Shown here: positions 1 to 45,600 of the stretch, piece after piece | Layout of the letters: every line of letters starts with the position of its first letter | How positions within the stretch are numbered: the first letter of the stretch is position 1 | IMG/VR virus record: IMGVR_UViG_3300021425_000025 | Coordinates: 1-64,000 of that record | Source of the DNA: a virus | Length of the DNA: 64,000 nucleotides | Reading direction: 5' to 3' (one strand) | Made by a program: the position numbers and the translations under genes | The notes under the pieces: generated by a model | What the model was told of the DNA's origin: nothing | Database searches by the model: none | Seen by the model: the letters and a program-made list of their open reading frames with translations, nothing else

Positions 1-44
1 AATAATATCAAGTTCATAGTCTTGTAAAAGTCGAAGCAACTCAT
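1..44 (-). CDS. Possible start of the next gene after the helicase, cut by window edge
   Basis: An ATG at 44 overlaps the helicase stop codon as ATGA, the coupling pattern used throughout this genome, and its frame stays open to the window edge. A competing frame with a TTG start at 39 reads LLRLLQDYELDII and looks more protein-like. The sequence is too short to choose between them or to name a product. Confidence 0.3.
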   Translation of the reverse strand, partial: MSCFDFYKTMNLIL

Positions 45-1456: not shown

Positions 1457-1602
1457 TCTTTTCCTATCGGCGGAAGTTCTTCTACTGTAATTATGCTTGG
1501 CACTTCATACGTAAAGGCCTTATCTGACTCTGTTGTTTGCTGTGCTTTGATACTCAAGTATAACACAAACAGCACAAAAAGTAAAGAAATCAATCGAACC
1601 AT
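1453..1602 (-). CDS. Small membrane protein between primase and helicase
   Basis: A 49-codon frame starts at an ATG inside the last 13 nt of the primase gene and ends in a TGA overlapping the helicase ATG. The product begins MVRLISLLFVLFVLYLSIKA, a single hydrophobic segment of about 16 residues that looks like an uncleaved signal anchor, followed by a polar, acidic tail ending in LPPIGKE. The exact coupling at both ends argues that it is a real gene. Its function is unknown. It could tether or modulate the primase-helicase pair at the membrane, but that is a guess from position only. Confidence 0.7.
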   Translation of the reverse strand: MVRLISLLFVLFVLYLSIKAQQTTESDKAFTYEVPSIITVEELPPIGKE

Positions 1603-2588
1603 TTCTTTGCCGTCAATCTTATTTTAAGGGGCGACTCTGTTGCATGTACAGCTATTGAGTGTAGTGTGTATAGCCTTCCGTAACGTGCAACAGCATCGCC
1701 AATATCGTTAATATCTTCTGCCCAGGGTGGCATGCTTACTGAATATCCTAGCTCAATTGCTCGCTCTACTAGCTTAGACCCTGCTTTGTCTCTGTCGGGT
1801 ACTACAATGATCTGCTTCTGCAGTCTGTTGAGTAACATAGCCTGTTGATCTGAAATCTCCGACCCTCCTAGTGCGCAACCTTCTACGTGTAGTGCATCGA
1901 GCTGACCCTCGCACACAATAGCAAACACTTTGGTATGACGTTGCTCATCTAAGTTGAATATGTATCCAGGTTGTACCTCTGTTAAGTACTTGGGCTTCTT
2001 ATCTGGTGTAATAGCTCTAGCAGTCCAACCCACTACCCTACCTTCGTAGTAGAAAGGTATGATCAATCTATCACGGTACCCTAGGCTTGGACTCCAGTGA
2101 TAGTCGATATCATCTATGCATAGATTACGTTCTAGCATATAGGCAAAAACATTTACCATACGTTCTGGTATAGTGCCCGCTTCGGCCCATTGATGATCTG
2201 CTAGTCTAACAGCATCGTCTGGCAACGGGACAGTGTTGAATGAGGGCAGTTCAGCTATGCGTGTTTTTGCCTCTACACCTTCATTCTCTCTCATCACTTC
2301 CAACGCCACCTTGTTGATTATATCGTCAGGCGCTCCTGTCCATTGTAGAAGTTTTCGTAACTTGTGTGAGAAATTTCTGCCCGGTTGCCAGCTTGCTTTG
2401 AAGCCGCAGTTAAAGCAATGATAACTAACGCCTCCATCTGGGTTACTTATAAGGCCACCACGGCCGCGAGTGTCTGCACTGTGACCATTGTGATGGCAAC
2501 ACGGTGCGTTAAAGGATAGCCAGCCACTAGGAGTTGTTTTCCTTTTAGCAGGCAAGTATGTCAGAACTGTATCGCTTACTACACTCAT
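1590..2588 (-). CDS. 61: DNA primase, T4 gp61-like
   Basis: Makes RNA primers for lagging-strand synthesis with the gp41 helicase. The 332-residue protein has an N-terminal zinc-binding module (C30/C31, H33, H36 and the later pair C58-x2-C61 in HCFNCGF), followed by a TOPRIM-type core with the acidic motifs IVCEGQLDALH and IIVVPDRDKAGS. The length matches T4 gp61 (342). The ATG at 2588 lies exactly at the predicted +1 of a perfect sigma70 promoter, so the mRNA may lack a leader. The 3' end overlaps the small membrane-protein gene. Confidence 0.92.
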   Translation of the reverse strand: MSVVSDTVLTYLPAKRKTTPSGWLSFNAPCCHHNGHSADTRGRGGLISNPDGGVSYHCFNCGFKASWQPGRNFSHKLRKLLQWTGAPDDIINKVALEVMRENEGVEAKTRIAELPSFNTVPLPDDAVRLADHQWAEAGTIPERMVNVFAYMLERNLCIDDIDYHWSPSLGYRDRLIIPFYYEGRVVGWTARAITPDKKPKYLTEVQPGYIFNLDEQRHTKVFAIVCEGQLDALHVEGCALGGSEISDQQAMLLNRLQKQIIVVPDRDKAGSKLVERAIELGYSVSMPPWAEDINDIGDAVARYGRLYTLHSIAVHATESPLKIRLTAKKWFD

Positions 2589-20887: not shown

Positions 20888-20895
20888 TATTTATC
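20888..20895 (-). promoter_or_regulatory. Late box GATAAATA, leaderless geometry
   Basis: GATAAATA plus TTAGT leads directly to the ATG at 20882; predicted +1 is its A. The box also lies between the terminase stop and this start, only 8 nt apart. Confidence 0.7.
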
Positions 20896-22477
20896 CAAAG
20901 TTGCTAGATATGAAGATTGGCATAGGTGCTTCATAATCTTCATCTTGTTCTGCCTGATTAAAAGAATTATAAATTCTAGGATCCCAATCTTTGAGAACAC
21001 TCATCATTCTAATACATAATAGTGTAGCACTAACTAGATCGTCACTCATACCCGACTTTGCTTGAAAACTTGATCCAGTTGCAACAAAACCTTTTAATTC
21101 AGATAGCAATGGTTTACTTCTAACTATCATTTTATCATTTTCAACCATAGTTTTTAATCGACTACATGCTGTAATTTTAGTGCTGTGTGTAGTATTAAAC
21201 CCTTTACGGAACTTGCGCACATGTCCTTTTCGAATAGGTTCAGACACAAATAGTCCTGGTATATTCTCTTCCCCAAAATCGTTTATAACGATTAGTGCTG
21301 CTTCTCCAATGCCGTTATTTTCTACACTCCAATATATACTATTATCGTTTTTTGTTTGATCTGCGATATACTTACATATGTCAGCAAGTACTCTAACCTG
21401 TCCAGGTATACCTGTTTGATTATGTTGCCATTCTGCTACTTGCTCGTAGCTTGGTAATTCAAAAACTTGTATAGCTGCATTATCACCACCAGTACCCATG
21501 CTAGGATCTAAACCAACTGCATACGTAAATTCACTTGTAGGTTTTTTATACCAACGTGTTTGACCCATATTAAGAATTGGACTTTCGCCTTCCATTGCTG
21601 CCAGTTTTATACTGTTAATAAGTGTTTCGTCAAATACTAAAAATTCACAACCATATTCACGTCTAAACTTTTCCTCGCCTATACGACCAATTTCAGCTTC
21701 TTTCCATTCTTCATCTCTATCAGGATGTTCTTCCCACTCTGCTCTAAAACTATGGAATCCATTTATTCCAACTTCTTGTTCATTACCGTGTGCATCAAAC
21801 TTGTCTTCAGCTTGTTTCCAAATAGTAGCAAATGTATCTTCGTCCGAGTTTGGTGTGCTTGTAATAATAGCACGACCACCTGTTGCTAGTGTAGGTGATA
21901 TTGAAGTCCAAAACTCTTCTGCAATGTTAGGTTGCACAAATGCAAACTCGTCACAGTATAGTAATGATATAGACATACCACGTCCTGTGTTGCCCGTTGT
22001 TGTTTGGCTTACAATACGTGAACCATTTTCAAACTCTATGCTACCTTTGTTGTAACTTGTAACACCGGCTCTAATATGGTCTGGACATGTTTCATACACA
22101 TATCGTATACGTGCCATAATCTCTTGTGCGCCTGTGTACTTGTGTGCAGCAATAAGAATTGTTTGATCTGAATTAAACATTGCATACCATGCAAGATAGA
22201 TAGCAGCACAGGTTGTTTTACCTGTTTGTCTAGGCATCATGTTAATATTAAATCTATAACTATGATAACTGTGCATCAATCGCAATTGATACTCAAAAGG
22301 ATCAAACAATAGTTTGCCTTTTACAGGATGTTGGATATATGCAAAACTTCTTGCGAAGTGTAAGTAACCCTCGTCAGGATCCATGCACTTTGCAAGATCT
22401 TCAATTTGTGCATTAGTATATGTTTCTTTTGTATTTGCCTTTTTAGTTAAGACACCATCTAAACTTTTACTTGCCAT
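20891..22477 (-). CDS. 17: Terminase large subunit, gp17
   Basis: DNA-packaging motor ATPase and headful nuclease, 528 residues from MASKSLDGVL. Walker A is MPRQTGKTT, Walker B LLYCDEFAF, and the coupling motif TSTPN follows. The RNase H-like nuclease domain keeps its acidic residues in AVGLDPSMG, WSVENNG and GMSDDLV. It is shorter than T4 gp17 (610). The frame is open to 22504, but that extension would run through a terminator hairpin, and the ATG at 22477 lies 4 nt after a late box. Confidence 0.95.
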   Translation of the reverse strand: MASKSLDGVLTKKANTKETYTNAQIEDLAKCMDPDEGYLHFARSFAYIQHPVKGKLLFDPFEYQLRLMHSYHSYRFNINMMPRQTGKTTCAAIYLAWYAMFNSDQTILIAAHKYTGAQEIMARIRYVYETCPDHIRAGVTSYNKGSIEFENGSRIVSQTTTGNTGRGMSISLLYCDEFAFVQPNIAEEFWTSISPTLATGGRAIITSTPNSDEDTFATIWKQAEDKFDAHGNEQEVGINGFHSFRAEWEEHPDRDEEWKEAEIGRIGEEKFRREYGCEFLVFDETLINSIKLAAMEGESPILNMGQTRWYKKPTSEFTYAVGLDPSMGTGGDNAAIQVFELPSYEQVAEWQHNQTGIPGQVRVLADICKYIADQTKNDNSIYWSVENNGIGEAALIVINDFGEENIPGLFVSEPIRKGHVRKFRKGFNTTHSTKITACSRLKTMVENDKMIVRSKPLLSELKGFVATGSSFQAKSGMSDDLVSATLLCIRMMSVLKDWDPRIYNSFNQAEQDEDYEAPMPIFISSNFG

Positions 22478-22481
22478 ACTG

Positions 22482-22489
22482 TATTTAAC
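22482..22489 (-). promoter_or_regulatory. Late-type box GTTAAATA before gp17, leaderless geometry
   Basis: The box plus CAGT precedes the ATG at 22477; the same CAGT spacer is used at 3397. It follows directly on the U-tract of the preceding terminator. Confidence 0.6.
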
Positions 22490-22490
22490 C

Positions 22491-22517
22491 AAAAAAATAG
22501 GCACCGAAGTGCCTATT
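22491..22517 (-). terminator. Rho-independent terminator before gp17
   Basis: Minus strand AATAGGCAC, loop TTCG, GTGCCTATT, then an uninterrupted T run: a 9-bp stem with a stable UUCG tetraloop. Ends the transcript of the 22538-23161 gene. Confidence 0.9.
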
Positions 22518-24275: not shown

Positions 24276-24283
24276 TATTTATC
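24276..24283 (-). promoter_or_regulatory. Late box GATAAATA before gp16
   Basis: Lies at the 3' end of the gp4 gene; predicted +1 near 24270 gives a leader of about 22 nt to the ATG at 24248. Confidence 0.5.
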
Positions 24284-24716
24284 TTCTTTTACCATTGTGA
24301 AAAATATCATTCTCTGTAACAATTCTAAAATAAATGCCTTTTTGTTTACACCAAGCTCTTGCTGCTTCCCATTTTGCTTGATTAATAATCCAATGAGCTT
24401 GGTTTGCACGACTGCGTCCTGTTTTTTCTTTTAATGATTGATTTTCTGGTTTAACTTCTATAAGTTCAACTTTTTGCTTTCCTGTTTTACTTGCATATGC
24501 AATAAAAAAGTCAGGAACATATACAGTATGTTTTCCTGTAAATGGATGTCTATAAGGTATTTTTACTGCCTCACTTGCCCATTGACTGACGCTAGGATGT
24601 TCATCACAGAATCTCATAAAGGCAAATTCCCAGCTGCTTCTATAAGTTGGTGTTGTATTTCCTAGATACTTATCAGGATTTTTTAGTTTAAATTTACCTT
24701 GAGCAAATTTTGGCAT
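24279..24716 (-). CDS. 4: Head completion protein, gp4-like
   Basis: A 145-residue protein with the gp4/gp50 pattern: KFKLKNPDKYLGN, YRSSWEFAFMRFCDEHPSVSQWASE, IPYRHPFTGKHTVYVPDFF and VELIEVKPENQS. The PDF...EVKP arrangement resembles a PD-(D/E)xK nuclease-like fold. In T4, gp4 is needed for head completion before tails attach. The length is close to T4 gp4 (150). Confidence 0.85.
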   Translation of the reverse strand: MPKFAQGKFKLKNPDKYLGNTTPTYRSSWEFAFMRFCDEHPSVSQWASEAVKIPYRHPFTGKHTVYVPDFFIAYASKTGKQKVELIEVKPENQSLKEKTGRSRANQAHWIINQAKWEAARAWCKQKGIYFRIVTENDIFHNGKRR

Positions 24717-24720
24717 GGCA

Positions 24721-26628
24721 TTATTCTTCCGTGCCGATGATAATTTGCCCTACCATTGATCCGTGGAATTGACAAATATAATAATAAGTGCCAGGAGTAA
24801 CACCTGCCGTATTCCATGTGCATGTTCCAGACTGTTGTCCGTTATTAGTAACACCAGTTGAAACTGTACTTCCAGTTCCTGTTACTGCGGCTGTTTTAAT
24901 CCAAAACGGATGTCCACTAACTGACAAGTTAAATTCAATTATATCACCTACTAAAATTTCTATAGTAGGATCATTTCCTGAAACTGCTCCATTTCTATCT
25001 GAGCCTGATAAAACGTAAGACGACGAGCCGCTACTAGTAACTGATATATTATATGTTGTAACTACAGGTGCTACAGACTCTGTAGTAATTGTAAATGGAT
25101 TTAATACACCGTACTTACTATATAAATGCCTGTTAGGAGATCCCATTATACTAAGTGTAAAAGACCTATAATCTGAATCATTGTTTGCAGTTTGATTGAT
25201 AACTGATTTTGAATCAGCATTCATAATGTCTTTTAATTGTGCTGGTGTTAGGTATGGGCGAGATTGTAAATATAATGCCGCAACGCCTGCTACTTGCGGT
25301 GATGCCATTGATGTACCGCCAATACTCATTATTTTATAATCTGTATTAGAAGGATAGTCTAATGGTGTGTAACTGTTAGTATTATAGTTCAAACTACAAG
25401 TACTCATTATATCTGTTCCGGGTGCCCACATATTTACTGCTGGTCCTTTTTTACTAGAACCAGCAGTTCTGTCAGTTACCGTTGTAGGTGTAGAATCTAT
25501 ATTTCCAACTATAAATGCATTTGAACTATAAGGTGAGCTTGGTCTATGATAATATCTTGTAATACCGCCAAAAACTACTGCATTATCATAATCTGTTCCG
25601 CTTGGTATATCTGCTTTATAATAATCATTACCTGCGGCAATGCAGATGTGTATTCCATCTGCAATCATATCTTCTACTTCAGCATCAACGAATGCTACTT
25701 GTGAAGGTATTCTTCTAAAGTCTGGATCATCACCGCCACTAAATTTTGACACTATGCCATAATCGTCCCAAAGTTCGGTATCTGTTTGAGCTGCGAATGT
25801 CCACGGTGTACCTCGATAAGTTCCGTTATCAGGATCTTGTGTATAAACTGCACTATATCCCCAACTCATATTTACTATAGTTGGCCTACTGTCTGTTTTT
25901 GCATTATGCCAAAGTCGGATTGCATCAAAAGAGTCTGAAATAGATATTCCATTTCCGGGATCAGCTGTTCCTTCTAGACCTGCTAACTTCTGTGCATATA
26001 TGCGGGCACCTTTGGCCCATCCATAAGTTTTACCTGCGGCAATACCTGCACAATGTGTACCGTGTCCATCATAATCGTTGTAGAAGAATGCATCTTGTGT
26101 TCCCGAAATACCTGATTCTGTATACCAATCAATGGCTTGAAATCTGCTAGTGCCTTCTGCATCTTCCCATTCAGGATGATCTTGATCAACTCCACTATCT
26201 TGAATAACTACGTCTACCCCTGTGCCATCAAGTGCATACAAATAACCACCAGGAGCAAGTTCACTCGAACCGTAAATATTAGTTTCTTCAATACAACGTC
26301 TTAGTCCCCAATTAACATTTACCGAAGATCCATCTTCTCCTCTTCTAAACACCACACCTTCACTTTGTTCTGCGTTTAGACCTATTTTAATATCATCTCT
26401 TTGATCTGGAGGAATTTCTACAGCACGTACTCTTGGGTCATTACGTAGTGCTTCTGCTTCTTCGTCAGTAAGCATAAAGTGTGTTTGTATTTTAGATCCA
26501 GGCCTAGCATTAGCAACGTCTACAGCTCTATTAGGAATAGGACCTGCACCGCTACTAGCAGTAATTTCTGCTTCAAGATCAGATAAGTGTTCCCTTGCTG
26601 TTGCTATTACGGTGTATTCTTTTTCCAT
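24721..26628 (-). CDS. Subtilisin-family (S8) protease with C-terminal cupredoxin domain
   Basis: A 635-residue protein. Residues 1 to about 110 look like a propeptide-type N-terminal domain. The S8 catalytic domain has Asp144 (IQDSGVD), His189 (DGHGTHCAG), oxyanion Asn334 (AAGND) and Ser440 (GTSMASP), all intact. Residues about 525-635 form a plastocyanin-like fold with the candidate type 1 copper ligands His573 (GHPFWI), Cys619, His622 and Met625 (YICQFHGSM). No signal peptide is seen. It sits among tail structural genes, so a virion-borne protease is likely; its substrate is unknown. AAGGTAG precedes the ATG. Confidence 0.85.
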   Translation of the reverse strand: MEKEYTVIATAREHLSDLEAEITASSGAGPIPNRAVDVANARPGSKIQTHFMLTDEEAEALRNDPRVRAVEIPPDQRDDIKIGLNAEQSEGVVFRRGEDGSSVNVNWGLRRCIEETNIYGSSELAPGGYLYALDGTGVDVVIQDSGVDQDHPEWEDAEGTSRFQAIDWYTESGISGTQDAFFYNDYDGHGTHCAGIAAGKTYGWAKGARIYAQKLAGLEGTADPGNGISISDSFDAIRLWHNAKTDSRPTIVNMSWGYSAVYTQDPDNGTYRGTPWTFAAQTDTELWDDYGIVSKFSGGDDPDFRRIPSQVAFVDAEVEDMIADGIHICIAAGNDYYKADIPSGTDYDNAVVFGGITRYYHRPSSPYSSNAFIVGNIDSTPTTVTDRTAGSSKKGPAVNMWAPGTDIMSTCSLNYNTNSYTPLDYPSNTDYKIMSIGGTSMASPQVAGVAALYLQSRPYLTPAQLKDIMNADSKSVINQTANNDSDYRSFTLSIMGSPNRHLYSKYGVLNPFTITTESVAPVVTTYNISVTSSGSSSYVLSGSDRNGAVSGNDPTIEILVGDIIEFNLSVSGHPFWIKTAAVTGTGSTVSTGVTNNGQQSGTCTWNTAGVTPGTYYYICQFHGSMVGQIIIGTEE

Positions 26629-26639
26629 TCATTTCTACC

Positions 26640-28169
26640 TTAATATAGAGGCTGCCAAACAGCACCGTCATAAAATACCGGATACGGTCTTGGTGTAGAT
26701 GATGATGCTGGATCCCAGTTATTATAATCCGCAACAGCAAACGTTCCGGCTACAGGATTTAAAGGTGCAGCACTTAATGGTGTTAATTTAAATATGCTAT
26801 CAAAATTTGCTGTGCCATTGATGTTTACATCATCTGCTGCTGTGATATTTACGCTGGCTGCACTAGTAAATCCTAAGTTTCCTGTGCCTACACTTGCTAA
26901 ATTTGCAATTTCAAGTGTACCTGTAAATGTACTTGTTCCTGAACTTGTGATATCACCAGTTACATCACCAGTTACATCACCAGTGTACATTGCTGTGCCG
27001 CTGCCGCCGGCATCTACATCAAGGATAACTGATCCACCATCTGCTGTTTTTACATCGCCATGTACTTCGCCCATTACATTACCTGTAAAGGTAGGAGTTT
27101 CGGCGCCTATATCTAATACTACACTTGTAGTAGGATTGGCAGGATCTGATACTACATCACCGTAGTACCATGCTGTATCAGCTTCTATGCCTGCATTTAA
27201 AACTTCACTGGCACTAGGATCTGCTAAGTTCCACACTAAACGACTACCGTAGTCTACAGGTCCGTTATCATCTGCAGGAAGCCATTTGCTTTCACTATCA
27301 TTCCATTTTAAAACTTGATTAGCAGTAGGCGGTGTTGTTGATGTATCTACATCTGTTAAGTCATTAATATCAGATACATCGCCGCCGCCTAAGTCAGAAC
27401 TGTTAGCAAGTTGTACCCAATTGCCGCCATGTGCAAAATATGCTGCGCCAGTGGCATGAACATGGGCAAACATACCGTGATAATTCGTAGCATTAGGTAA
27501 ATCGCCTACTTCACTATACACGTTTCCAAATAATACTTTATTACCGCCCATGTCTAAATCAGAGCTAGTTACAGCACTAATGGCGTCAGAGTCTGTATAC
27601 GATGTGCCTGAGCCAGCGTTTGCTACCCACGTATAGTTTGCCCCATCCCAACTTAACACTTCAGATGCTTGTGCTTCACTAACATTTAGATGAGTATCAA
27701 CATCGGAATTAGTATAAGATCCGCCACCGCCACTAGAAAGTAAACTGTCGATGTCTGTAAGTTGATTAATATCTGTAGGTATTGTAGGTTGTTGTGTTAA
27801 ATCATTATAACTGCCACTAAACAATACTGGCTTGTCGGTTAGATCATCATAACTACCACTAAATGCACTGTCAGACACTGTTGCTGGAAACCATTCTGTA
27901 CCAGACCATTCTAAAACTTGTCCAATACTCGGAACATTACTTGAAACATTATTTAAGTCGCCTATGTTAACAGGAACAGCTGGAGCATTTTCTAAAGACG
28001 AATAATCACCATCAAACAATTCTGGTTTACCTTGTATATTATTCCAAACAACAGGTGTTTCTGCAATCGTTGTTGCATTTGTAACTCTAACATCTAAGTC
28101 GGTAAAGTTTCCATCTAATTCTGCATAAGTTAACTGAGAACCTTTGTCTGTTCTTAAAATTATTGCCAT
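26640..28169 (-). CDS. Fibre-like structural protein
   Basis: A 509-residue protein with the common phage fibre N-terminus MAIILRTDKGSQLTYAELDGNF and repeated phrases such as SGSYDDLTDKPVLFSGSYNDLT, WSGTEWFP and GDVTGDVTGDI, typical of trimeric fibre stalks. The C-terminus ends FYDGAVWQPLY, resembling the fibre end segments encoded further right. Role in adsorption is inference. Confidence 0.75.
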   Translation of the reverse strand: MAIILRTDKGSQLTYAELDGNFTDLDVRVTNATTIAETPVVWNNIQGKPELFDGDYSSLENAPAVPVNIGDLNNVSSNVPSIGQVLEWSGTEWFPATVSDSAFSGSYDDLTDKPVLFSGSYNDLTQQPTIPTDINQLTDIDSLLSSGGGGSYTNSDVDTHLNVSEAQASEVLSWDGANYTWVANAGSGTSYTDSDAISAVTSSDLDMGGNKVLFGNVYSEVGDLPNATNYHGMFAHVHATGAAYFAHGGNWVQLANSSDLGGGDVSDINDLTDVDTSTTPPTANQVLKWNDSESKWLPADDNGPVDYGSRLVWNLADPSASEVLNAGIEADTAWYYGDVVSDPANPTTSVVLDIGAETPTFTGNVMGEVHGDVKTADGGSVILDVDAGGSGTAMYTGDVTGDVTGDITSSGTSTFTGTLEIANLASVGTGNLGFTSAASVNITAADDVNINGTANFDSIFKLTPLSAAPLNPVAGTFAVADYNNWDPASSSTPRPYPVFYDGAVWQPLY

Positions 28170-28171
28170 TG

Positions 28172-28630
28172 TTATTCTCCCACGTATCCCGGCTCTACAT
28201 ATCCAAGAGTTACATAATTTTCTTGATTTGATATAATTGTTTCTTCTGGTGTTTCAAAAACTTCTACATTTCTTGATTCTAATAAAGTTTGTTGACTTTC
28301 TAATCTAAAACCCAATGTACTAGTTTTAGATCTATTATAGTTTAAAATTTCTGTTACTAACGTACTAAGTTGTAGTTCGTTAAATCCTTTTAAGCTATCT
28401 AACAATTTAAAAATAGGTACGTTGTCGATCTTTGCTTGCTGCATTAAGATAGTGGAAACACTATAAGCGGCTGTCTTTTCAAAACCTCTTTTTTCAAAAA
28501 AAGCAATTACTGCATCTACTTCGTTAGATGAAAATTCTAATTTTGCTGTATAAAAATTATCAAAAAATTCTCTAACTGATTCGTCACTTGATGTAAATTT
28601 TGTTTGCGGTATATTTCCTGTAACTGCCAT
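28172..28630 (-). CDS. Structural-region hypothetical protein
   Basis: A 152-residue protein. The N-terminal half contains YTAKLEFSSNEVDAVIAFFEKRGF and a helix-rich SVSTILMQQAKIDNVPIFKLLDSLKGF; the C-terminus carries LLESRNVEVFE and ends YVEPGYVGE. I recognise no catalytic motif. Packed 2-3 nt from both neighbours in the tail-tube transcript, so a baseplate or tail role is plausible. Confidence 0.65.
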   Translation of the reverse strand: MAVTGNIPQTKFTSSDESVREFFDNFYTAKLEFSSNEVDAVIAFFEKRGFEKTAAYSVSTILMQQAKIDNVPIFKLLDSLKGFNELQLSTLVTEILNYNRSKTSTLGFRLESQQTLLESRNVEVFETPEETIISNQENYVTLGYVEPGYVGE

Positions 28631-28632
28631 TT

Positions 28633-29772
28633 TTAAGTTCCTGTTGTATTTGGTAAGCCATTAGCTTCTTGTGCTTGTCCTATTTTTTGTGCTTTAGCTT
28701 CTTGCGAGGTATTATCATTCTTACTTACTGCTTGTGTTGTTTCAGTACCTTTGCCACTATTCTTGCCAAAGAATGTACCTGTAATTCCGCCTGGTGAAGG
28801 ATCTTGTCCAGCACTTACTATTGCATTAGTTAGTATACTAAAACCTTCTCTTTTAAGACTGTCTTTTGATAAATCTCCTGCATTGCGTACTGTATTTGCC
28901 GCAGTAAGTAATGTTCCTAGACCAACATTACCACTAGTAATATCACCTAATACACTAGAAGCACCGTCTAATATGCCGCCACCGCCGAAAAGATTAGCAA
29001 CGCCGCCGCCTTGTACACTTAAAGGACTTGGTGTTTTATCATAGTGACTAGATGCAAAAGTTGCTGGATCGTCTTCGCCTACTACACCGTCTGAATATAA
29101 AACTGCTTCGTAATTTAAAGCCATTTTATTTTCTACTATGCCGGCGCCGTCTGTTTGGTCCATAGTATCATGGCCCCATGCTGTAATTATTGGATTAATT
29201 AATGTATATTCTTGATATTGATGTCTACTAAATTGATATAATTTTATATTCTTAAAGAATGGTTCAAGTTTATCGTTGTCTAAACCAAACCTATAACCTC
29301 TTCCGTTACTTTCTTTATATGTACTTCGAGGATCATATGTTGCACTAATATCTGAAATATTGCCGTCTCTATAGTAATATCTATAGTATGCTTGCATTAA
29401 AGAATTAGTAATTCCCAAATTATCGTCGTGCATAAGAATGTTAACCGGAGAATAATCAATTCTAGTTTGTATATTCTTTTTTCTATTATATTGATTTTTT
29501 GTATCTACAGTAGCAGTATATTGTGGCAAATCAATTTGCTTACAAAGCATATTCATTTCTGCTCTATGCCTTTGTGCCATCTTTGGAAAAGCCCTAATTA
29601 CTGAATCTGTAAAATTAAAATTTACAAAGTAAAGGAATTTTACCTTAGGTGCAAGACGAAATGCATTGTCAACATATAAACGCTGAGCATGTTGGAAGTC
29701 GCCTACTATTCCTTTTGGATTAGTAACTCCACCGAAAAAATTATCTAAGAATCCGTTTAACTTGTTTGCCAT
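28633..29772 (-). CDS. Tail-tube-like baseplate protein (gp54/gp48-like position)
   Basis: A 379-residue protein with a tube-fold style core: KVKFLYFVNFNF, MLCKQIDLPQYTATVDTKNQYNRK, YSPVNILMHDD and LINPIITAWGHD, like gp19 and the tube-initiator proteins. A disordered, Gly-rich tail starts near residue 250. It may be the tail-tube initiator or cap on the baseplate, which I infer from fold-like pattern, size (T4 gp54 320, gp48 364) and location next to gp19. Start lies 5 nt after a late box. Confidence 0.55.
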   Translation of the reverse strand: MANKLNGFLDNFFGGVTNPKGIVGDFQHAQRLYVDNAFRLAPKVKFLYFVNFNFTDSVIRAFPKMAQRHRAEMNMLCKQIDLPQYTATVDTKNQYNRKKNIQTRIDYSPVNILMHDDNLGITNSLMQAYYRYYYRDGNISDISATYDPRSTYKESNGRGYRFGLDNDKLEPFFKNIKLYQFSRHQYQEYTLINPIITAWGHDTMDQTDGAGIVENKMALNYEAVLYSDGVVGEDDPATFASSHYDKTPSPLSVQGGGVANLFGGGGILDGASSVLGDITSGNVGLGTLLTAANTVRNAGDLSKDSLKREGFSILTNAIVSAGQDPSPGGITGTFFGKNSGKGTETTQAVSKNDNTSQEAKAQKIGQAQEANGLPNTTGT

Positions 29773-29777
29773 ACATA

Positions 29778-29785
29778 TATTTATC
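29778..29785 (-). promoter_or_regulatory. Late box GATAAATA, leaderless geometry
   Basis: GATAAATA plus TATGT leads straight to the ATG at 29772; predicted +1 is the A of ATG. Follows the gp19 terminator. Confidence 0.7.
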
Positions 29786-29805
29786 CATAAGAAAAACCAC
29801 GCAGA

Positions 29806-29835
29806 TAATAAAAAAGGAGACCGAAGCCTCCTTTT
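29806..29835 (-). terminator. Terminator after gp19
   Basis: Minus strand AAAAAGGAGGC, loop TTCG, GTCTCCTTTTTT: an 11-bp stem including one G-T pair with a UUCG tetraloop, followed by T-rich sequence. Confidence 0.8.
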
Positions 29836-29860
29836 TCGTTTGACAATCTACTTTTTAAGT

Positions 29861-30493
29861 TTACTGTGCGCCGCCGCCGCCAGTTACTAGAGTGTTAACT
29901 GTACGACCAACTGCTGTACCAATACCAGTACCTTGTGGTGTTTGAATAGCATTATCGTATCTAATTGATAGTGCGATAGTTGCTGGATCATTGGTAGCAT
30001 ATGCCATTGTGTTATAGTTTGCATTAGTTAAGAAGCAACCATAGCACTCCCAAGTCTCTAATACACCGACTTCGTTTGCACCGTTGCCACCGTCAAGCAT
30101 TTCAATACGAGTTAAGAACTTGTAATCAATACCTGATGCTGCACTTGACTGTTCAAAGAAGTCAAATTGCTTCTGAAGTTGCTCGCCAACTTGCTTAGTA
30201 ACGTTGTTGCTTACATCGTCTCTTACGTTAAGAGTAATTGGTTCCCAAGTGTGCTTACCTGCTAGGTAACTTCTTGAGTTGTAAACATCTAAAGTAATTT
30301 CTTCAAAAGTTAAGTTAGGACGAGTTACGTCTACTACTTGTTTTGTTAGTTCTGTTGTATTACCACTTACGCCAAAGTTTTCTAGTGTCACTCTAAAGCG
30401 ATACTGTAACTTAGGCATTAACAAGCCTTGGTTACTTGCACTAGAATCACTAGCTAGTGGTACTGTAATTTTTGATAATGTTGAGATTGCCAT
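29861..30493 (-). CDS. 19: Tail tube protein, gp19
   Basis: A 210-residue protein matching the contractile-tail tube family: MPKLQYRFRVTLENFG, QVVDVTRPNLTFEEITLDVYNSRSY, HTWEPITLNVRDDV and WECYGCFLTNANYNT. The length is near T4 gp19 (163) with a longer C-terminus. It polymerises inside the gp18 sheath. GGAGAAAATATAA precedes the ATG, and it has its own late promoter and terminator, as expected for a high-copy protein. Confidence 0.92.
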   Translation of the reverse strand: MAISTLSKITVPLASDSSASNQGLLMPKLQYRFRVTLENFGVSGNTTELTKQVVDVTRPNLTFEEITLDVYNSRSYLAGKHTWEPITLNVRDDVSNNVTKQVGEQLQKQFDFFEQSSAASGIDYKFLTRIEMLDGGNGANEVGVLETWECYGCFLTNANYNTMAYATNDPATIALSIRYDNAIQTPQGTGIGTAVGRTVNTLVTGGGGAQ

Positions 30494-30515
30494 TTATATT
30501 TTCTCCTGTTGCTAG

Positions 30516-30523
30516 TATTTATC
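30516..30523 (-). promoter_or_regulatory. Late box GATAAATA of gp19
   Basis: Followed by CTAGC, matching the T4 late context. Predicted +1 near 30510 leaves a 17-nt leader holding GGAG, so this late gene is conventional rather than leaderless. Confidence 0.7.
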
Positions 30524-30530
30524 AAAGTAA

Positions 30531-30552
30531 GGACCCCTTTTTTCAGGGGTCC
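30531..30552 (-). terminator. Hairpin after gp18, possible terminator
   Basis: GGACCCC, an 8-nt loop and GGGGTCC form a perfect 7-bp stem between gp18 and the gp19 promoter. The trailing sequence is only weakly T-rich, so it may be a processing or attenuating hairpin. Confidence 0.55.
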
Positions 30553-30562
30553 TAGCCCTCAT

Positions 30563-33500
30563 TTAAAGTCCTGCAATTTCTCCTGTATTCTTAAGTCTTA
30601 GTGGAATGTAAATAAATTCTACTGCTTTAACTGGTTCAATTGCAATGTCTAAGTATAGCTCATTACGATCTATTCTTCCTGGAGTATTGTTTGATTCATC
30701 ACAAACAACTAAGAAGTCATAAAGTGCTCTTTGTCCTACTAGCTCTAAACATAAGCTCTCTGCTGCTGCTTTGATTTGATCTCTAGTAATCTTATCATTT
30801 GGTTCAAACAAGTAAGGTTTTGCTAGTTTGTTTAGCTGGCTTCTTAAGTAAACAACTAAACGTGCTACGTTCACTCTATCAAGTGAGCTTGCATTTCTTG
30901 CACGAGTTTTTTGTCCAAATACAACAAGGCCTGCGCCTGCTAGTGTTGTAATTGGGTTAACTGCGTTTGAATACAATGTATCGCGTTGACCTTCGTTAAG
31001 TGCAACACTTACAAATTCTCCTTCGTCACTAATATAACCTGTTGCTGTTGCATTAGTTACACCGCCACGTCTTGTACCTGCGGGTGCAAACCATGGATAA
31101 GAAACTTGATCACTTAGTGCAATAGTGCGAAGTGCCATATGACTTGGTGGAACAACAATGTTGTTACCTACGTTATCACTTGTAAATCCTGCTGGATAAT
31201 AAACACCCATGTACTCGTCTCTACTAACTAAGCCGTCGTCGTTATCTTCAACTGCTAGACGAACGTTAGTACCCCACTCATTAAGTGAAGTTGCATCTGG
31301 CTTCAATCTCATTGGACTGTCGCCTACAATAAATGCACTTAAACCTCTGTCATAGTTTAGACTTACCATTTCTCCAATTAGTTCTGGATAACCTGGTGTT
31401 GCCATTACATTGAATAGTCTAGTTTCGTCATCTCTTAATTCGTCAACTCCGCTAACCATTGCTTGTAGTCCAGTAATAACAATTTGACGCTGTGCTTTAC
31501 GGCCAAAACTACCTGATCCATCTGCTTGGTTAGCTGATGCTGTTACCCAACGGTGTGGATAGTAATTTGCTTGGCTTTCGCCGCTAACTGCATTGTCTGC
31601 GTTAATGTCAACATAATTACGTACAAAACGCTTAACATTAAATCCACTTCTACGTAGGTTCCATAACAACATACCTCTTGGATATAGTGCTGCTTGTGGA
31701 GCATCGCCGTCTACATAATCTGAACTTAGCAAGTCTACAATATCACCTGCTGTTCCACTGTTTGCGCCTGCTGTGTTGTAACGTGCATCTGCAAATAGTA
31801 CACCGTTTTCTGTAGTTTGATCTGAGCTATCTAGTAATACCCACTTTAGAGTAACGCCATTATAGCGATAAATTAATGGATAGTTTTCAATATCAGCAGT
31901 GCTTACCCAAAGGTCGCCTTCAACTAGTGGTGAACCGTCGCTTTGCTTTTCTGGTTCTGTTGCACTAACTATTGGACCCATTGGATCTGAATCAGGATAT
32001 GCTACACGATAACCTCTCCAGCTATTACCGTCATGTACCATAATGTCAACTTCGTCAACAACTGAGTTATACCATAGTTGGCCGTCTGCTGCTAAACTTG
32101 ATGGTGCATCATCGCTTGCTGTTAGTGTTGCTTTTTTCCAGTTACTTGCTGTTAATGTAAGCGGGTCATCTGAACCCGAAGTTCCTACTTTAACATAAAG
32201 GTTTGCTGTTCCTGAACCGTCTGCATAATCGTATGCTGTAAAGCCTGCGCCTGATAGTGCTGCTGAAGTATCAACAAATTCCATTTCGCCGCCAGCGGTA
32301 TGTTCAATAACAACTCTATCACCAACTACACTTGCAACAACATAGTTTAGTCCTGCTGAGTTGATAGCACCTGCCATAACGTCAGCATCATCTGAGTTTC
32401 CTGCTACTGCAAATGAAACTGTTACAGGATCACCAACACCTTGTACGCCTGGTGCAGATTCTGCAATAGTAAATGATTCATTACCAGGAGTAAATGTTGC
32501 TCCAATTACGCCGCCTTCGATTCTTGTAGTTCCTGTGCCTACTCTTTCGTATACAGTAAATGCTGCTCTTGCTGGTGATGTGCCTTGTGCATTTGATAGT
32601 ACATAAGAATCACCTGCTGCAAGACCAAGGCCGCCACTTGAGCGATCTAAATCAAATAATGCGCCTGCTGCTGATGCATAAATTGGTAATTCAACAGCAT
32701 CAAAAAGTTCTGTTTCTGAATTCCAACGCTTGTATCTCCAACGGGCACCTTGATTTGGTTCTGTAGTCTTAACCCAAACAGATCCTGTTGGACGTGGGCT
32801 TGTGTCGTTCATTTTAAATTCTGGAACACTTGTATGTGGGCTAACTTGTAGTGCAGGACAAAGTTTTGTCTGTACTGAAAGTCCTAGTAAAGGAAGTAAG
32901 TCACCGCCTACGCCGGCGCCAGCTGCTAATGAAATAGTTGAGTCTGCTGAACCATCATTAAAAATATGAACTTTGCCGTCAATTTTTTCTAATCTTACGC
33001 CTGTGTTTGCATTAGCTAGTTGAATATTTGCTGCTGAAATAGTTGCGTCTAGTGTTGCATCTTCTGCAATGCTATAATCAGCTGCTCCAACTGATAACGT
33101 AAATGTAGCCGAACCGCCTACAAAACTTGCTTCGTTTGCTGATGAATCAGCAACTATTGTTGGATGACTATCAACCCAATCATTGCTTCCTACTTCTACC
33201 CATTCGCCTAAATAATTCTTGTAGAAAACTTTAATTACGTTTGTTGTTGCTTTAATAGCATATTCGCCTTTTTGTCCAACTGATGTTTTTGGAGATCCGT
33301 TTGGTGCAATTTTTGTAGTATCAGTAATAACAATAGGTGTTTTAACTTGGAATGTTTGCCCGTCTGTTTGTGCTGCTGATGCACCATTCCATTCAAATAT
33401 GCCCCATGCTGTATTTTGTGTATCAAGCCAGTTAGTTCCGCCTGCTGGATTTGCACTTGGTGCTTCTGCTGTAGGCTGTAGTTGACCTAAGTCAACGTCT

Positions 33501-33835
33501 GCTCTTGTAACATATACTGCATTGCTTACGCCTAAAAGTGAGTATGCTGCTTGTAAGCCGTACTCGTTTAGTTCTCCGCCGTGTACTGGGTTATTGTTTG
33601 CATCAGTATAAAAAATTGGATCGCCGAACTTATCTGCAAGATCTCTTTGCGATGTTAGTAATACTGGTTTTTCAGCATTAGCTTTTGTTGTTGCTTCTGC
33701 TGTTGCTGTTCCGCTACCGTTTGTTTTATTTTCTGCGGTAGCAACGAATATCATTGGTACAGTTCCTGGTTCTGCCGGAGTGTAAAAACTCTCGTCAATT
33801 ACCTTGACCTCTACGCCTGGTGATGTTAATGCCAT
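30563..33835 (-). CDS. 18: Tail sheath protein, gp18, enlarged
   Basis: A 1090-residue contractile sheath protein, against 659 in T4. The N-terminus (SPGVEVKVIDES, FGDPIFYTD, GLQAAYSLLGVSNAVYVTRADV) and C-terminus (PWFAPAGTRRG, LYSNAVNPITTLAGAGLVVFGQKTRA, DRVNVARLVVYLRSQL) are typical. Roughly residues 120-700 are extra, surface-domain-like sequence with repeated GxLWVxTxE and W-rich segments (GSVWVKTTEP, GDLWVSTADI). The extra domain would decorate the sheath exterior. GGAGATCAAAA precedes the ATG. Confidence 0.92.
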   Translation of the reverse strand: MALTSPGVEVKVIDESFYTPAEPGTVPMIFVATAENKTNGSGTATAEATTKANAEKPVLLTSQRDLADKFGDPIFYTDANNNPVHGGELNEYGLQAAYSLLGVSNAVYVTRADVDLGQLQPTAEAPSANPAGGTNWLDTQNTAWGIFEWNGASAAQTDGQTFQVKTPIVITDTTKIAPNGSPKTSVGQKGEYAIKATTNVIKVFYKNYLGEWVEVGSNDWVDSHPTIVADSSANEASFVGGSATFTLSVGAADYSIAEDATLDATISAANIQLANANTGVRLEKIDGKVHIFNDGSADSTISLAAGAGVGGDLLPLLGLSVQTKLCPALQVSPHTSVPEFKMNDTSPRPTGSVWVKTTEPNQGARWRYKRWNSETELFDAVELPIYASAAGALFDLDRSSGGLGLAAGDSYVLSNAQGTSPARAAFTVYERVGTGTTRIEGGVIGATFTPGNESFTIAESAPGVQGVGDPVTVSFAVAGNSDDADVMAGAINSAGLNYVVASVVGDRVVIEHTAGGEMEFVDTSAALSGAGFTAYDYADGSGTANLYVKVGTSGSDDPLTLTASNWKKATLTASDDAPSSLAADGQLWYNSVVDEVDIMVHDGNSWRGYRVAYPDSDPMGPIVSATEPEKQSDGSPLVEGDLWVSTADIENYPLIYRYNGVTLKWVLLDSSDQTTENGVLFADARYNTAGANSGTAGDIVDLLSSDYVDGDAPQAALYPRGMLLWNLRRSGFNVKRFVRNYVDINADNAVSGESQANYYPHRWVTASANQADGSGSFGRKAQRQIVITGLQAMVSGVDELRDDETRLFNVMATPGYPELIGEMVSLNYDRGLSAFIVGDSPMRLKPDATSLNEWGTNVRLAVEDNDDGLVSRDEYMGVYYPAGFTSDNVGNNIVVPPSHMALRTIALSDQVSYPWFAPAGTRRGGVTNATATGYISDEGEFVSVALNEGQRDTLYSNAVNPITTLAGAGLVVFGQKTRARNASSLDRVNVARLVVYLRSQLNKLAKPYLFEPNDKITRDQIKAAAESLCLELVGQRALYDFLVVCDESNNTPGRIDRNELYLDIAIEPVKAVEFIYIPLRLKNTGEIAGL

Positions 33836-39802: not shown

Positions 39803-42601
39803 TTATCCGTTTAGAATCCAATTTTTATTTAGAGCTATATCTCTATCAGTTTGTGTTAGTGTTTGTAATCCTAAGTTACCGCCTATAAACAACGTATACG
39901 CTGTAGCTTCGACTCTTCCGTCTGGCTTAGTTTCTGCAACACTGTTGTCCCATAAGTTATTAAACATGTTTACAATCTGAGCTCTATCAAAACTACAGTT
40001 TCTAAAATACATCTGTCTACGTACATTAGTAACATTAATTTCTTGCAGAGAACTACAATCTATAATAAACTGATTAATTCCTGCTGTTGCACTTGTTGAT
40101 TCAGTAGTAACATTTTGTAAATTATATGTGCCTGGTAGTTTTGTAAGTGCTCTACAATAACCCCACATACGTGCAACGTTTGTTGCGTTACTAGTATCAA
40201 ATGTAGCATCTACAACTGTAAGAGTTTCACTACCATAGAACATATAACGGAAGTCTGAACACGAACTGCCAGGGCCATTTAGGTCTGGAATATAATGCAT
40301 AGCTCTTGGGTTAATTGCAAATGCATAAGCATTTGTGCAGCTCGATAGATCAACACCTGCTGGGAATTCTCTAAGAGCATACATATATGCAAAGGCATAT
40401 CTCATATCGCCGCCCTGTGAAGTATCCATTGTTGGTAGATATTCAATATTACGGCAACTTTGTAAAAACTGATAAAATCTAAAAATCTGTCCAAAGCTCA
40501 TAGGCGGTATTGTGTTTAGAGCAAAACAGTTAGTAAACAGCCTATATCCGTCAAAGCTTCTTGGATTACCATCAATGTCTAAATATGTTTTGTTAAAGAA
40601 GTTTGTTGGAATCTCTGCTAGGTTATAGCAACCGTAGAATATGTAATCAAGGTTTGTGTTTTGGCTGTCAGTGTGTGCAAAAATTTCAAAATTTGGCACA
40701 CTAGGTAAGTTGTGACAATCCCAGAAAATAGCATCATAGTTACGCAATTCTGTAGTAATAAACTCGTCATTAATTTGATTAAACTTCTCTAATACTCGAC
40801 AGTATCTAAACATACCACGCATGTCTGTTGCTGAACTTGTATCTAAGTGGAATGGTATTTCTGTTAAACTCAAGCAGTTATAGAACATGTAGTAGAAGCT
40901 AGTAGCGTATTGTGTGTCTAGTGTAATGTTAGTAAACTCTGATAGTGAGTTACAGTTATAAAATAAATCACGGAATTCTGTAGCCTGATTAACTTGGTTA
41001 ATGTTACGCAGTGCTGGTGCTTTAATGAGCGAAATACAACTATGGAAAATACCACGTAGTCGTGTAGCACTTCTACAGTCAAGTTCCCAGTCAAGACCTG
41101 TCAGTGAAAAACAGTTAATAAACATACGATAGAAGTCAGTAACGCTCTGTGTGTCAATATAACCAATCTCGCTCAAGTAGTAACAACTAGTAAACAGGTT
41201 ATCTAAGTCAACTACTTGACTTGAATTAGATAGTGTAGGTGCAACACGTAGTTGGTTCATACCAGCAAACATACCGTTAATCCGTGTACATGCGCTTAGA
41301 TCAAATGTATCTTGTGTTAGACGTTTAATATTAATACAACCATTAAACATGTTATCCATACGTGTTACACCGCTAGTATCTAGTGATGGCAAGTATTCTA
41401 GTCTATAACATGCTAAGAACATTCTGTCCATACGTGTAATCAAGTTATTTGAACCAATAAATCTTGTATACTTAACTTTAGTACACGACTCCATTAGACG
41501 ATATGCATTGGTACACGAACTTGTATCAATTTGTGGCATTTCTGTTAATGATCTTAATGAAAGGAACATACCGTCCATACGTGTTACTGCACTAGTATCC
41601 ATTGCTGGTAAAAATCTAAGAGCATAACATCCTGAGAACATGTATTCACAACGTTGAACATTACTAAAGTTCCAAGATGTATCACTAAACAATTCTAAAT
41701 TAAAACAGTTTTGGAACTGATACTGCGAATACACATTGTTTTGAAATTCTAAAGGAGGTATATATTTTAATCGATTACAAAGTCGAAACATATAACTCAT
41801 GTTTGTTCCATTCGATGTATCTAGTGCAGGAGCATTTTGTAATTGTCTATTGTAATAGAACATGTAATGGAAGTTGTTAACTGTAGATGTTGAAGGCAGT
41901 GTTGGATAACCATCGTCGCCCATATTATCACAATGACCAAACATAAAGTAACAATCTGTTAGTGTAGCAAACGGTAAGTTAGGTACTGAACGCAGTCCCC
42001 AGCAGTGTCTAAACAATTGGTTTCCGCTTGTTTGAGATGAAGCACTAGCAACCCAGTGAATTCTTTCAAGTACACTATGTCTCCAGTTCCACTGATATTG
42101 ATAAAATGTACCAGTGTTATTCATAGCAAACTTGATATCTAACCAACCAGTTGAAGTGTAGTTTGTTAAGCCTGCTGCATTGTGTTTGTTATTTAGGTTA
42201 ATAGCAGTTAGCGACTGTCCACTTTGCGGTGTTACAGTTACCATAACCTGTCTATATCCTCTACTTGTTAGTGTAGTTGATGAAACATTATTCCAATCAT
42301 AATCATGATATGCTGTTGAGTTACTTGCAATATTTTCTACAGGACTTCCGTCACCCCAGTCAATAGTGTATGCACCCGTAGCTCTAAATGTTAAAAAGTT
42401 ATGAGGGGTATCATAAATTGCAACTAGTCCGTAAAAAACTTGGTCTGTTTCAACCACGTTTGGCATAGCTAACCAATCGGATTGTCTAGTCCAGCTAGAC
42501 GGATTAGTTGGTTTTACATTACCCGAAGCCGGGTCTGCCGTTGGTGGCGTTGTTATCGGTGGCAAATTGCCTGTAGGTCTTGGTCCGTAATGTACGCCCA
42601 T
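39803..42601 (-). CDS. BspA-like repeat surface protein, likely adhesin
   Basis: A 932-residue protein. An N-terminal PKD-like part with ITDWGDGS-type sequence (TIDWGDGSPVENI) near 95-115 is followed by about 700 residues of BspA/DUF285-style repeats of about 23-27 residues. The consensus is MFxxCxxLxxLPxLDTSxxTxM, seen for example as YMFSGCYALRFLPAMDTSAVTRM. Such repeats form curved surfaces in bacterial and protist surface proteins and bind host matrix. In a phage this is probably a receptor-binding fibre component. GGAGGAGATATTTAA-type Shine-Dalgarno precedes the start. Confidence 0.8.
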   Translation of the reverse strand: MGVHYGPRPTGNLPPITTPPTADPASGNVKPTNPSSWTRQSDWLAMPNVVETDQVFYGLVAIYDTPHNFLTFRATGAYTIDWGDGSPVENIASNSTAYHDYDWNNVSSTTLTSRGYRQVMVTVTPQSGQSLTAINLNNKHNAAGLTNYTSTGWLDIKFAMNNTGTFYQYQWNWRHSVLERIHWVASASSQTSGNQLFRHCWGLRSVPNLPFATLTDCYFMFGHCDNMGDDGYPTLPSTSTVNNFHYMFYYNRQLQNAPALDTSNGTNMSYMFRLCNRLKYIPPLEFQNNVYSQYQFQNCFNLELFSDTSWNFSNVQRCEYMFSGCYALRFLPAMDTSAVTRMDGMFLSLRSLTEMPQIDTSSCTNAYRLMESCTKVKYTRFIGSNNLITRMDRMFLACYRLEYLPSLDTSGVTRMDNMFNGCINIKRLTQDTFDLSACTRINGMFAGMNQLRVAPTLSNSSQVVDLDNLFTSCYYLSEIGYIDTQSVTDFYRMFINCFSLTGLDWELDCRSATRLRGIFHSCISLIKAPALRNINQVNQATEFRDLFYNCNSLSEFTNITLDTQYATSFYYMFYNCLSLTEIPFHLDTSSATDMRGMFRYCRVLEKFNQINDEFITTELRNYDAIFWDCHNLPSVPNFEIFAHTDSQNTNLDYIFYGCYNLAEIPTNFFNKTYLDIDGNPRSFDGYRLFTNCFALNTIPPMSFGQIFRFYQFLQSCRNIEYLPTMDTSQGGDMRYAFAYMYALREFPAGVDLSSCTNAYAFAINPRAMHYIPDLNGPGSSCSDFRYMFYGSETLTVVDATFDTSNATNVARMWGYCRALTKLPGTYNLQNVTTESTSATAGINQFIIDCSSLQEINVTNVRRQMYFRNCSFDRAQIVNMFNNLWDNSVAETKPDGRVEATAYTLFIGGNLGLQTLTQTDRDIALNKNWILNG

Positions 42602-42639: not shown

Positions 42640-45600
42640 TTAGTACTTATACTCTGTCATTAATGGTGGAACATCCTTTCTGACTGCGGTAAAGTCCCAG
42701 AAGAACTTAAATTCGCCGTCTACATTGTCTGTTCTAACTTCAAATCTATTGTTAGCAACTTCAACTTCTTCGACCCAAAGAACTTGACCATGTTTTACAT
42801 TAGTTAGATGCACTGTAGCACCTTCTTCACGACACAATGCGCCAATGTATTCTGGAAGCTCAACGATAGCAGTACCGTTAACTACTGTTGCTTCACCTGT
42901 TAGTCTAACACCATGATATGGTGATTCAAGTGAACCATAAGATAGTTTGTATCCTGGTTTAGTTGGATGATTAATAACAAAGTTTTTAGCTGTAGCATTT
43001 AATGTGCCAGCTATTGTAACATTACCAGTAAATACCGAAGCACCTGTAACTTGTAATCTGCTAACACCGTCGTTTGATGTTTGACCAACTAGTAAGTAAC
43101 TGTTACTTGAAGGAACTGCAATAAGTTCATTAGTATCATTACCTTCAAGTAGTGTTTTAGTATCATTGTTTACAGAGAACACAGTACCAACTAGTGTATC
43201 TGTAATTGTTAACAACTGACCTGCTGCACCGTCAAATCTTAAACCACCTACTACCTGATCCATTCTTGCAGTAATCTGCTGAATGCCATCAACAGCCTGG
43301 AATTGCAAGCTAGATCTAACTTTCATTGCAATGTTATTACTTGGATCTGTATTGATAACGTTTAGTGTTTCGGTGTTAAGTGTACCAGTTTGATACATAT
43401 CTCCACCTAGACCAAGACCGCCTGCAACACGTAGCGCACCAGTTGTTGAACTTGTTGCTGCTGATGTACTGTTAATAGCAGTAATACCACCAATTGTTAG
43501 CGCACCGCCAAATGTTGGCGATGTTGTCCACTGTGGTACTGAACCGTCACTAAACAGTACTGAGTTGTTAGGTCCAATTGCTAGGTTTGTTAAGCTGTCT
43601 GTAGCACCTGAGTAAATCAAGTCACCTGCTGTGTAACTTGCTAGACCTGTACCACCTTTGTTAGTTGGTACACTTGATGATAAGTTAGCTGGGTTAGTAT
43701 AATAGTTACCTGCTTGGCCGCCTAAGAAACCAGCATCAATAACACCACTCTTAATACTAACTTGTCCATTAGTTGTTGTAAACTGTAATTTGTTAGTTCC
43801 AATAACACCTAGGTTAGTATAGTTAGTATCACCGCTGCCGTCATCTGCTCTTGCAACATCTAGTGCTAGTTCTGCATAATACTTGTTAAATCCGTCATCT
43901 GGATCAGTAAAGAAGTCACCAGTTACTGATATTGGACTATCTACTACTGGTCTAACATTCTGTACTGCAAGTACCCAAGCACTGTTACCGTTTAACAATC
44001 TTAAGAATGATTGATCAGTTGCAGTACCTTCTGGTGCAAGTCTTGATGGATCAATAACACCCGAAACAATAGCACTTGCATCAAAGCTACTTGAAGCAAG
44101 TATACCCCAGTTTAAGATATCAGTTGAACTTGTGTTTACTGTCCCAACAATAGCAACGTTTTGTAGTGTAAATGTTGCTGCTCCTGTTCCTGTATCTGTA
44201 ACATCGATCGGGTTAATTGTAACACCATTTGTACTTGCTAGTGCATCGCCGCCGCCTTCGTGTAATGTAAATGTATTAGTTGTTACACTACCAACAAAGT
44301 AAGTTGTTTCATCTAACAATCCTTCTGGAGCATCAGTAGCACTTAGTCTAATAATATCGCCAGTTTGGAATGTGTGTGCTGGAACATTAAACACATTACT
44401 ATCAATAGCAACAGTATCGTGTATAAACACATGGTTACCTGATGTTGAACCGCCTAGTAATATTTGCGAACCTGCTGTAAACGCATAGTTTGCATAAAGT
44501 TCAAATGTATCTACATCAAGAACTTTAACAAAGTAAGTAGTTCCGTCTACTAAGTTACCTACTACTGGGTTACCATTTCTGCTATACTTAACAGCTTCAC
44601 CGCTTACAAGTCCATGGCCTGTAATTTCAAATTCACTGTTTAAGTAATCAACGTCACCGCCTGCGCCAATGTCAGAACCATTAAAGATAACGTTTGTAGT
44701 TGCTGTTAAATCTGCAATAGTTTTAACTGTTGCATTAGCATCTTGTATGTAGTCTGGTGATCCTTCGTTAGCACTAAACTTGAGGAAGCCTCCTGTTAGA
44801 TCAATAAACAATCTAGTTTGTACAGTAGCAACATTAATGCTAAAGTTTGTACCAGTACCGCCGATATTTGATGGTGCTGCACTTAGCGTATCGCCTGCTG
44901 TATAGTTAACACCGCTTGCTGTAAGTTGTACACTTTCAACTACGCCTGTAGTAACTGTAATGTCTGCAACTGCGCCAGTACCAGTGCCGCCTGTTAGAGG
45001 AACATCTTTATATGTTTGTGTTCCAGTGCCTGGTGTATAACCACTACCAGCATTAAATGTTGCATAGTTAAGTGAAGCAATATTACCATATGTTGGTCCT
45101 GCTGTGATATCACCCTGCGCACCTGCGTTAGCACCAATTACTTCAGTGATCCCTGTGAAGTCATATGTTATACCACCTTCAAGAATTAGATACTGACTAA
45201 TTGTATCACTCTTCATAAAGTAGTTGTCAACAATTTCTTGTGTTGGGTTTACTGTACTTGGAATAATGCCTGTTTGTGCAGAACCATTAACTTCAATTTC
45301 ACCTGTAGTGTTAAATGTGCCAGTTGTATCTGCTAGTGTAATAACGGTATTAGCAATAACTGTTTCTTGTAAGTAACCAAATGCACCCGAATTACCAACC
45401 TGAGTAATTTCATCACCCTTGTTAGCAGTAATATTATTATTAAGAGAAATAATTACTTGATCATAAGTTTCACTTGCGTTATCACCTGCAATTACTTCAA
45501 TTGGAGGAACACGATCTGAAAGTCTTAGTCTTCCTTCCCACTCATTAACGTTATATGTTGTAATACCACGTGCTGGTGGTAACAAGTCTGCATTAATTTG

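Follow-up and report, generated by a model that had tools for sequence, protein, structure and literature searches.

The minus strand of the window, as the whole stretch of DNA analysed here is called (64,000 nucleotides from a marine bacterial virus, positions 1 to 64,000 of the IMG/VR virus record IMGVR_UViG_3300021425_000025), encodes at 24721-26628 a subtilisin-like S8 protease fused at its C-terminus to a cupredoxin domain. The ORF is intact from ATG to stop, is 635 aa long, and matches the phage protein family phrog_9158. The reading slightly favoured here is that of a tail-associated protease, made as a zymogen and joined to a portable tail module that has a type 1 copper site and serves for docking or host contact.

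Location of the gene in a tail cassette

On one side the protease gene is flanked by fibre, tube and sheath genes; the other side holds genes for head completion and terminase. By its encoded position it is a member of the tail cassette, in agreement with the preliminary description, made from the sequence alone. Genes follow each other in the order sheath, tube, second tube-like, unnamed, fibre, S8-cupredoxin, head-closure/TnsA-like, and terminase genes. The adjoining upstream gene (26640-28169, minus strand) encodes a tail fibre-like protein of 509 aa devoid of cupredoxin, recognized by matches to phrog_9729 and phrog_677 and by synteny with locus L232. Genes for the unnamed protein, the tube-like protein, the tail tube and the tail sheath make up the remaining cassette (28172-33835, minus strand). 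The tube-like protein (28633-29772, minus strand; phrog_13438) is the larger of the two, and its gene lies beside the tail tube gene. The product of 24279-24716 (minus strand) is a head closure protein according to PHROGs, and features also a TnsA-like endonuclease N-terminal domain (PF08722, E 6.9e-24).

Four additional ORFs of the minus strand deserve mention. ORF 34834-35280, found within the tail gene region, encodes a NifU-like Fe-S cluster assembly protein (phrog_8429, E 1.5e-27). The 932 aa product of 39803-42601 includes seven DUF285 stretches and a weak BspA-type leucine-rich repeat match, which is odd for a tail region. Many stretches of the 3570-aa ORF at 42640-53352 match the tail fibre families phrog_5342 and phrog_4527. 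The 2510-aa baseplate wedge protein encoded by 55582-63114 hosts a Laminin_G_3 lectin-like domain, as well as a bactofilin-like stretch slightly under the Pfam cut-off.

The large terminase (20891-22504, minus strand) is closest to those of the jumbo phages PA5oct, Phosso and Atu_ph07 (44-55%), and not to those of cyanophages; the tail tube is similarly closest to those of Sinorhizobium phage Phosso and Atu_ph07. The protease and the adjoining fibre match cyanophages. The window thus belongs to a T4-like virus whose affinities are mixed.

The protease and its N-terminal domain

The catalytic domain extends approximately from aa 101 to aa 505 (25114-26328, minus strand). Residues 135-473 of the window sequence match Peptidase_S8 (PF00082, E 1.7e-31), the best PDB sequence match is the keratinase 5wsl (7.9e-17), and the catalytic fold matches keratinase, aqualysin and proteinase K in Foldseek comparisons. 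An Asp-His-Ser triad and an oxyanion Asn are all found in S8 sequence context and fold; the corresponding codons, on the minus strand, are located at 26197-26199 (D144), 26062-26064 (H189), 25627-25629 (N334) and 25309-25311 (S440). H189, N334 and S440 are conserved in 153/153 complete relatives, D144 in 152/153, and the triad D144, H189 and S440 pointed out in the preliminary description is thereby confirmed. Purifying selection acts on the protease part, where dN/dS is ~0.09; in the cupredoxin part synonymous changes are too few or saturated for the ratio to be interpreted. The protein is predicted, with little doubt, to be an active S8 enzyme.

The whole protein was modelled by AlphaFold with 37 sequences (mean pLDDT 84). 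Two stretches, 80-85 and 511-520, were poorly predicted, and divide the protein into N-terminal, S8 and C-terminal domains. The second stretch (pLDDT <50 at 511-520) corresponds to a flexible linker between protease and cupredoxin, which spans about aa 506-520 (25069-25113, minus strand). The N-terminal domain (aa 1-80, boundary approximate; 26389-26628, minus strand) is folded in the model as strand-helix-strand-helix-strand, the order being that of I9 propeptides, with low confidence at 80-85. Weak matches to Inhibitor_I9 (PF05922) at E<=1 were found in 17/33 relatives, the best having an E value of 6.1e-4. The window protein scored 0.049, under the cut-off, and a PDB profile search carried out with the N-terminal domain gave no match to an I9 propeptide.

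Fold and putative ligands of the cupredoxin domain

The cupredoxin domain covers approximately aa 521-632 (24733-25068, minus strand). Both Pfam cupredoxin matches of the window sequence are under the cut-off (Copper-bind, E 0.019), and family profiles and a fold search were used for this reason. PF00127 is matched by 24/27 family members at E<=0.1, with a best value of 6.7e-5. The best PDB matches of the family profile are rusticyanin, plastocyanin, auracyanin and amicyanin, and in the profile alignment the His, Cys, His and Met residues align with those of rusticyanin. The AlphaFold model of aa 510-635 is all beta, with a mean pLDDT of 93.2. Among the PDB fold matches listed, 50/50 have the cupredoxin fold and nearly all are copper proteins; they include rusticyanin, AcoP, plastocyanin, pseudoazurin and copper nitrite reductases, as well as laccases and further multicopper oxidases, and the related coagulation factors V and VIII. 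Against solved structures of cupredoxins the TM-scores reach only moderate values (0.37-0.53 on query).

The putative ligands are H573 (24910-24912), C619 (24772-24774), H622 (24763-24765) and M625 (24754-24756), all encoded on the minus strand, the last three residues forming a short CxxHxxM loop. The domain features therefore what distinguishes type 1 copper proteins, namely the cupredoxin beta-sandwich and an ordered, family-conserved His-Cys-His-Met set. In classical cupredoxins the first ligand is followed by Asn or Ser. H573 is followed by Pro (P574), and the site may thus not be a standard blue one. AlphaFold modelling of both domains had been proposed as a check in the preliminary description; it yielded a confident cupredoxin fold at the C-terminus and a subtilase fold matched by known enzymes, and, along with the family profile and the conservation of the ligands, it substantiates the C-terminal cupredoxin with the His-Cys-His-Met set that had been described.

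Conservation of the ligand set

The 162 distinct complete copies of the domain were reduced to 56 representatives less than 60% identical to each other, the mean identity being 38%. Only six columns are invariant in the 56 copies, and correspond to the four ligands, P574 and Y617. In sequences so divergent, a ligand set making up four of the six invariant columns is not a product of chance. Some copies had been found via the ligand motif, and conservation was hence rechecked on loci fetched by protease motifs alone. In these, 41 distinct copies carry H-C-H-M and two H-S-N-L, and one is cut at the edge. Phage genomes were also searched with the domain deprived of the ligand loop, and largely the same proteins were recovered; the motif is present in the matches inspected, except in S-CAM1, whose match stops before the loop. 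A few further tandem copies, found in loci L074, L080 and L136, have lost ligands. The conservation of the ligands is strong evidence for a metal site, and is not proof of copper. That the domain binds a metal is predicted with good confidence.

Distribution of the fusion among relatives

Residues 1-506 of the protein align to positions 4-547 of the profile of phrog_9158, a family of unknown function in PHROGs v4, with an E value of 1.1e-111, and the cupredoxin domain matches positions 579-695 of the same profile, both parts of the fusion being thus represented in the family. S8-cupredoxin fusions have been found in the Synechococcus phages S-H9-1, S-CAM4 and ACG-2014e/i/j, and in dozens of marine viral contigs. 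The notion that the fusion is unique to this virus was discarded, as the architecture is shared by phrog_9158, cyanophages and many marine contigs; the fusion, first thought to be unusual, denotes a family that recurs among the T4-like phages of the sea.

The protease-seeded scan retrieved at least 571 relatives. The cupredoxin is present on 11/71 complete distinct proteases identified in this way, and is missing in 60/71. In the pooled set, 83/153 complete relatives have a cupredoxin on the protease and 70/153 do not, the former figure being enriched through the cupredoxin seed used for part of the first scan. A tree built from the protease part with FastTree shows at least 13-15 switches between presence and absence of the domain; the exact number of gains and losses is soft, since the method is quick and branches are long. 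The window protein and two relatives fall inside a supported group of 15, 12 of which lack the cupredoxin, and on the protease tree the fusion seen in the window seems to have arisen by a gain of its own. At the place of the cupredoxin some relatives feature different C-terminal sequences, one of which is Calx-beta-like by eye. In the proteins compared, the protease is the constant part, and the cupredoxin is repeatedly gained or lost.

Cupredoxin domains on other tail proteins

The same domain is borne also by gp10-type connectors and tail fibres that have no protease domain. Twenty-one proteins, namely 20 cupredoxin ORFs lacking a protease and the window's fibre, were considered, and 20/21 match phrog_677, the family of the gp10-type baseplate connector. 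The C-terminal part of the phrog_677 profile itself matches the cupredoxin domain of the window. In L232 genes are ordered as in the window (tube, second tube, unnamed, fibre, protease, head closure, small terminase), and the cupredoxin is located on the fibre adjoining the protease, and is absent from the protease. Flanks were long enough in 79 loci; there, a cupredoxin gene next to the protease was found in 15/38 cases when the protease lacks the domain, versus 4/41 when the protease has it (Fisher p 0.003). This reciprocal pattern is not significant with phylogenetically independent pairs, which are too few, and the domain swap is thus reported as a trend, accompanied by one clear syntenic case. 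The gp10/tail-pin gene of S-CREM1 and S-H38 is directly followed by the protease gene.

Over 17,905 bases contig IMGVR_UViG_3300021373_001563 and the window are identical; its overlap with the left end of the window spans 2,292 bases at 99.96% identity. Beyond the overlap, a second S8-cupredoxin protein (57-61% identical) is encoded on this contig, beside a cupredoxin-bearing fibre. These two genes (L009:8380-10563 and L009:6441-8366, on the contig overlapping window positions 1-2292) belong to the same virus population. The same cupredoxin domain, 41-43% identical, was also spotted in longer proteins of Flavobacteria (L157:5104-6327 and L156:2-1870), which are a possible cellular source of the domain.

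Virion association and proposed role

The relative encoded by S-SCSM1, itself lacking the cupredoxin, is a virion protein by the depositors' label, and a distant relative in Atu_ph07 is tagged gp329. According to the Atu_ph07 study, most virion proteins detected by mass spectrometry are encoded by three clusters, one of which includes CDS 284-329 (PMC6102473); if the tag equals the CDS number, as assumed, the gp329 relative sits at the edge of this cluster. The S8-cupredoxin protein is likely to be a virion component.

We infer that the subtilase is associated with tail or baseplate and is made as a zymogen. The I9-like N-terminal domain would keep the enzyme inactive while the particle is assembled in the cytoplasm, and would then be removed through self-cleavage. 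The enzyme, built into the tail, could trim, around the time of adsorption, proteins of the host surface or fibres of the phage itself. A host surface protein as substrate has a nearly even chance. The portable cupredoxin would hold the enzyme on fibre or baseplate, or touch the host surface; it may bind copper outside the cell, and the metal may shape or stabilise its binding loop. Docking or contact, rather than control of the protease, is the probable role of the cupredoxin. Of the three functions contemplated in the preliminary description, that of docking domain fits best, since this module has shifted between tail connectors, fibres and the protease; degradation of host surface protein is plausible, and copper activation is disfavoured. 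The idea that copper-loaded cupredoxin tips on connectors, fibres and proteases work as a metal-dependent adhesin, a lure for uptake receptors or a redox trigger of the tail is quite speculative.

The protein might alternatively be a maturation protease that cuts tail fibres or baseplate proteins during assembly, the cupredoxin only recruiting it to substrates. Subtilases are able to process other proteins, the gene is found among tail genes and adjoins a fibre or gp10-type connector, and no signal peptide is evident by eye in the 635-aa protein. A free maturation enzyme is needless in the virion, yet relatives have been classed as virion proteins by label or by gene position. T4-like phages normally process their heads with gp21; we know of no cleavage site or precursor for the enzyme, and many relatives, to our knowledge, do without it. 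Maturation is on the whole a rather unlikely role. Less probable still is that the cupredoxin is a structural beta-sandwich only, its ligand set being a relic, or serving folding without metal. The few copies with lost ligands, and the different sequences, Calx-beta-like included, borne by other relatives at the same place would suit such a role, but that precisely the four ligands should be invariant at a mean identity of 38% is hard to explain without metal. Activation of the protease by a cupredoxin sensing periplasmic copper or redox state, suggested by the fusion of a complete conserved ligand set to a protease, is very improbable, because the triad is kept in the 70/153 relatives that lack the cupredoxin, 60/71 proteases of the protease-seeded scan have no such domain, the domain is found also on proteins without protease, and the flexible linker provides no fixed contact between the two parts.

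Comparison with known systems

The S8 proteins of phrog_9158, and those of S-H9-1, S-CAM4 and ACG-2014e/i/j, have the same architecture as the window's protein, S8 being followed by cupredoxin. Overall identity to the proteins from cultured phages is ~28-34%, and existing annotations of phrog_9158-type proteins name a protease at most; this unnamed family gains an architecture and a testable function. The gp10-type connectors of phrog_677 end with the same cupredoxin, but have no protease domain; in the window, unlike in these, the protease bears the domain and the adjoining fibre does not. Keratinase 5wsl and aqualysin 4dzt share the catalytic fold (target-normalised TM-score 0.85-0.86), but proteinase K-like subtilases are secreted cellular enzymes without cupredoxin, and the phage protein has insertions. 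Rusticyanin, plastocyanin and amicyanin share fold and His-Cys-His-Met set with the phage domain. They are electron carriers, whereas the phage domain is a fused tail module, differing from type 1 copper proteins also in the Pro after the first His and in the short Cys-x2-His-x2-Met loop.

Sullivan et al. 2010 mention an S8 peptidase in P-HM1 and P-HM2, and plastocyanin only as a separate petE gene (PMC3037559). No description of cupredoxin or plastocyanin-like domains in phage tails was found in the open-access literature searched. The movement of the domain among tail proteins of marine phages, its copper-binding residues staying unchanged, suggests a metal-site module of tails that has so far gone undescribed. 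Its most conserved feature is the complete type 1 copper ligand set, and it is spread over many such proteins. Should the site hold copper, phage adsorption would be tied to copper in the sea, and tail function could be tested simply, by chelation or ligand mutants. Discussion of metal sites in phage tails has concerned iron. According to the Trojan Horse hypothesis, tail fibres of marine phages carry iron in HxH sites, and such a metal site has been proposed for Alteromonas phage R22Y (PMC11705849). R22Y-type fibres hold iron in HxH motifs, while the window protein has the cupredoxin ligand set instead; the uptake-receptor lure, if at work in marine T4-like phages, would be the copper counterpart of the iron Trojan Horse.
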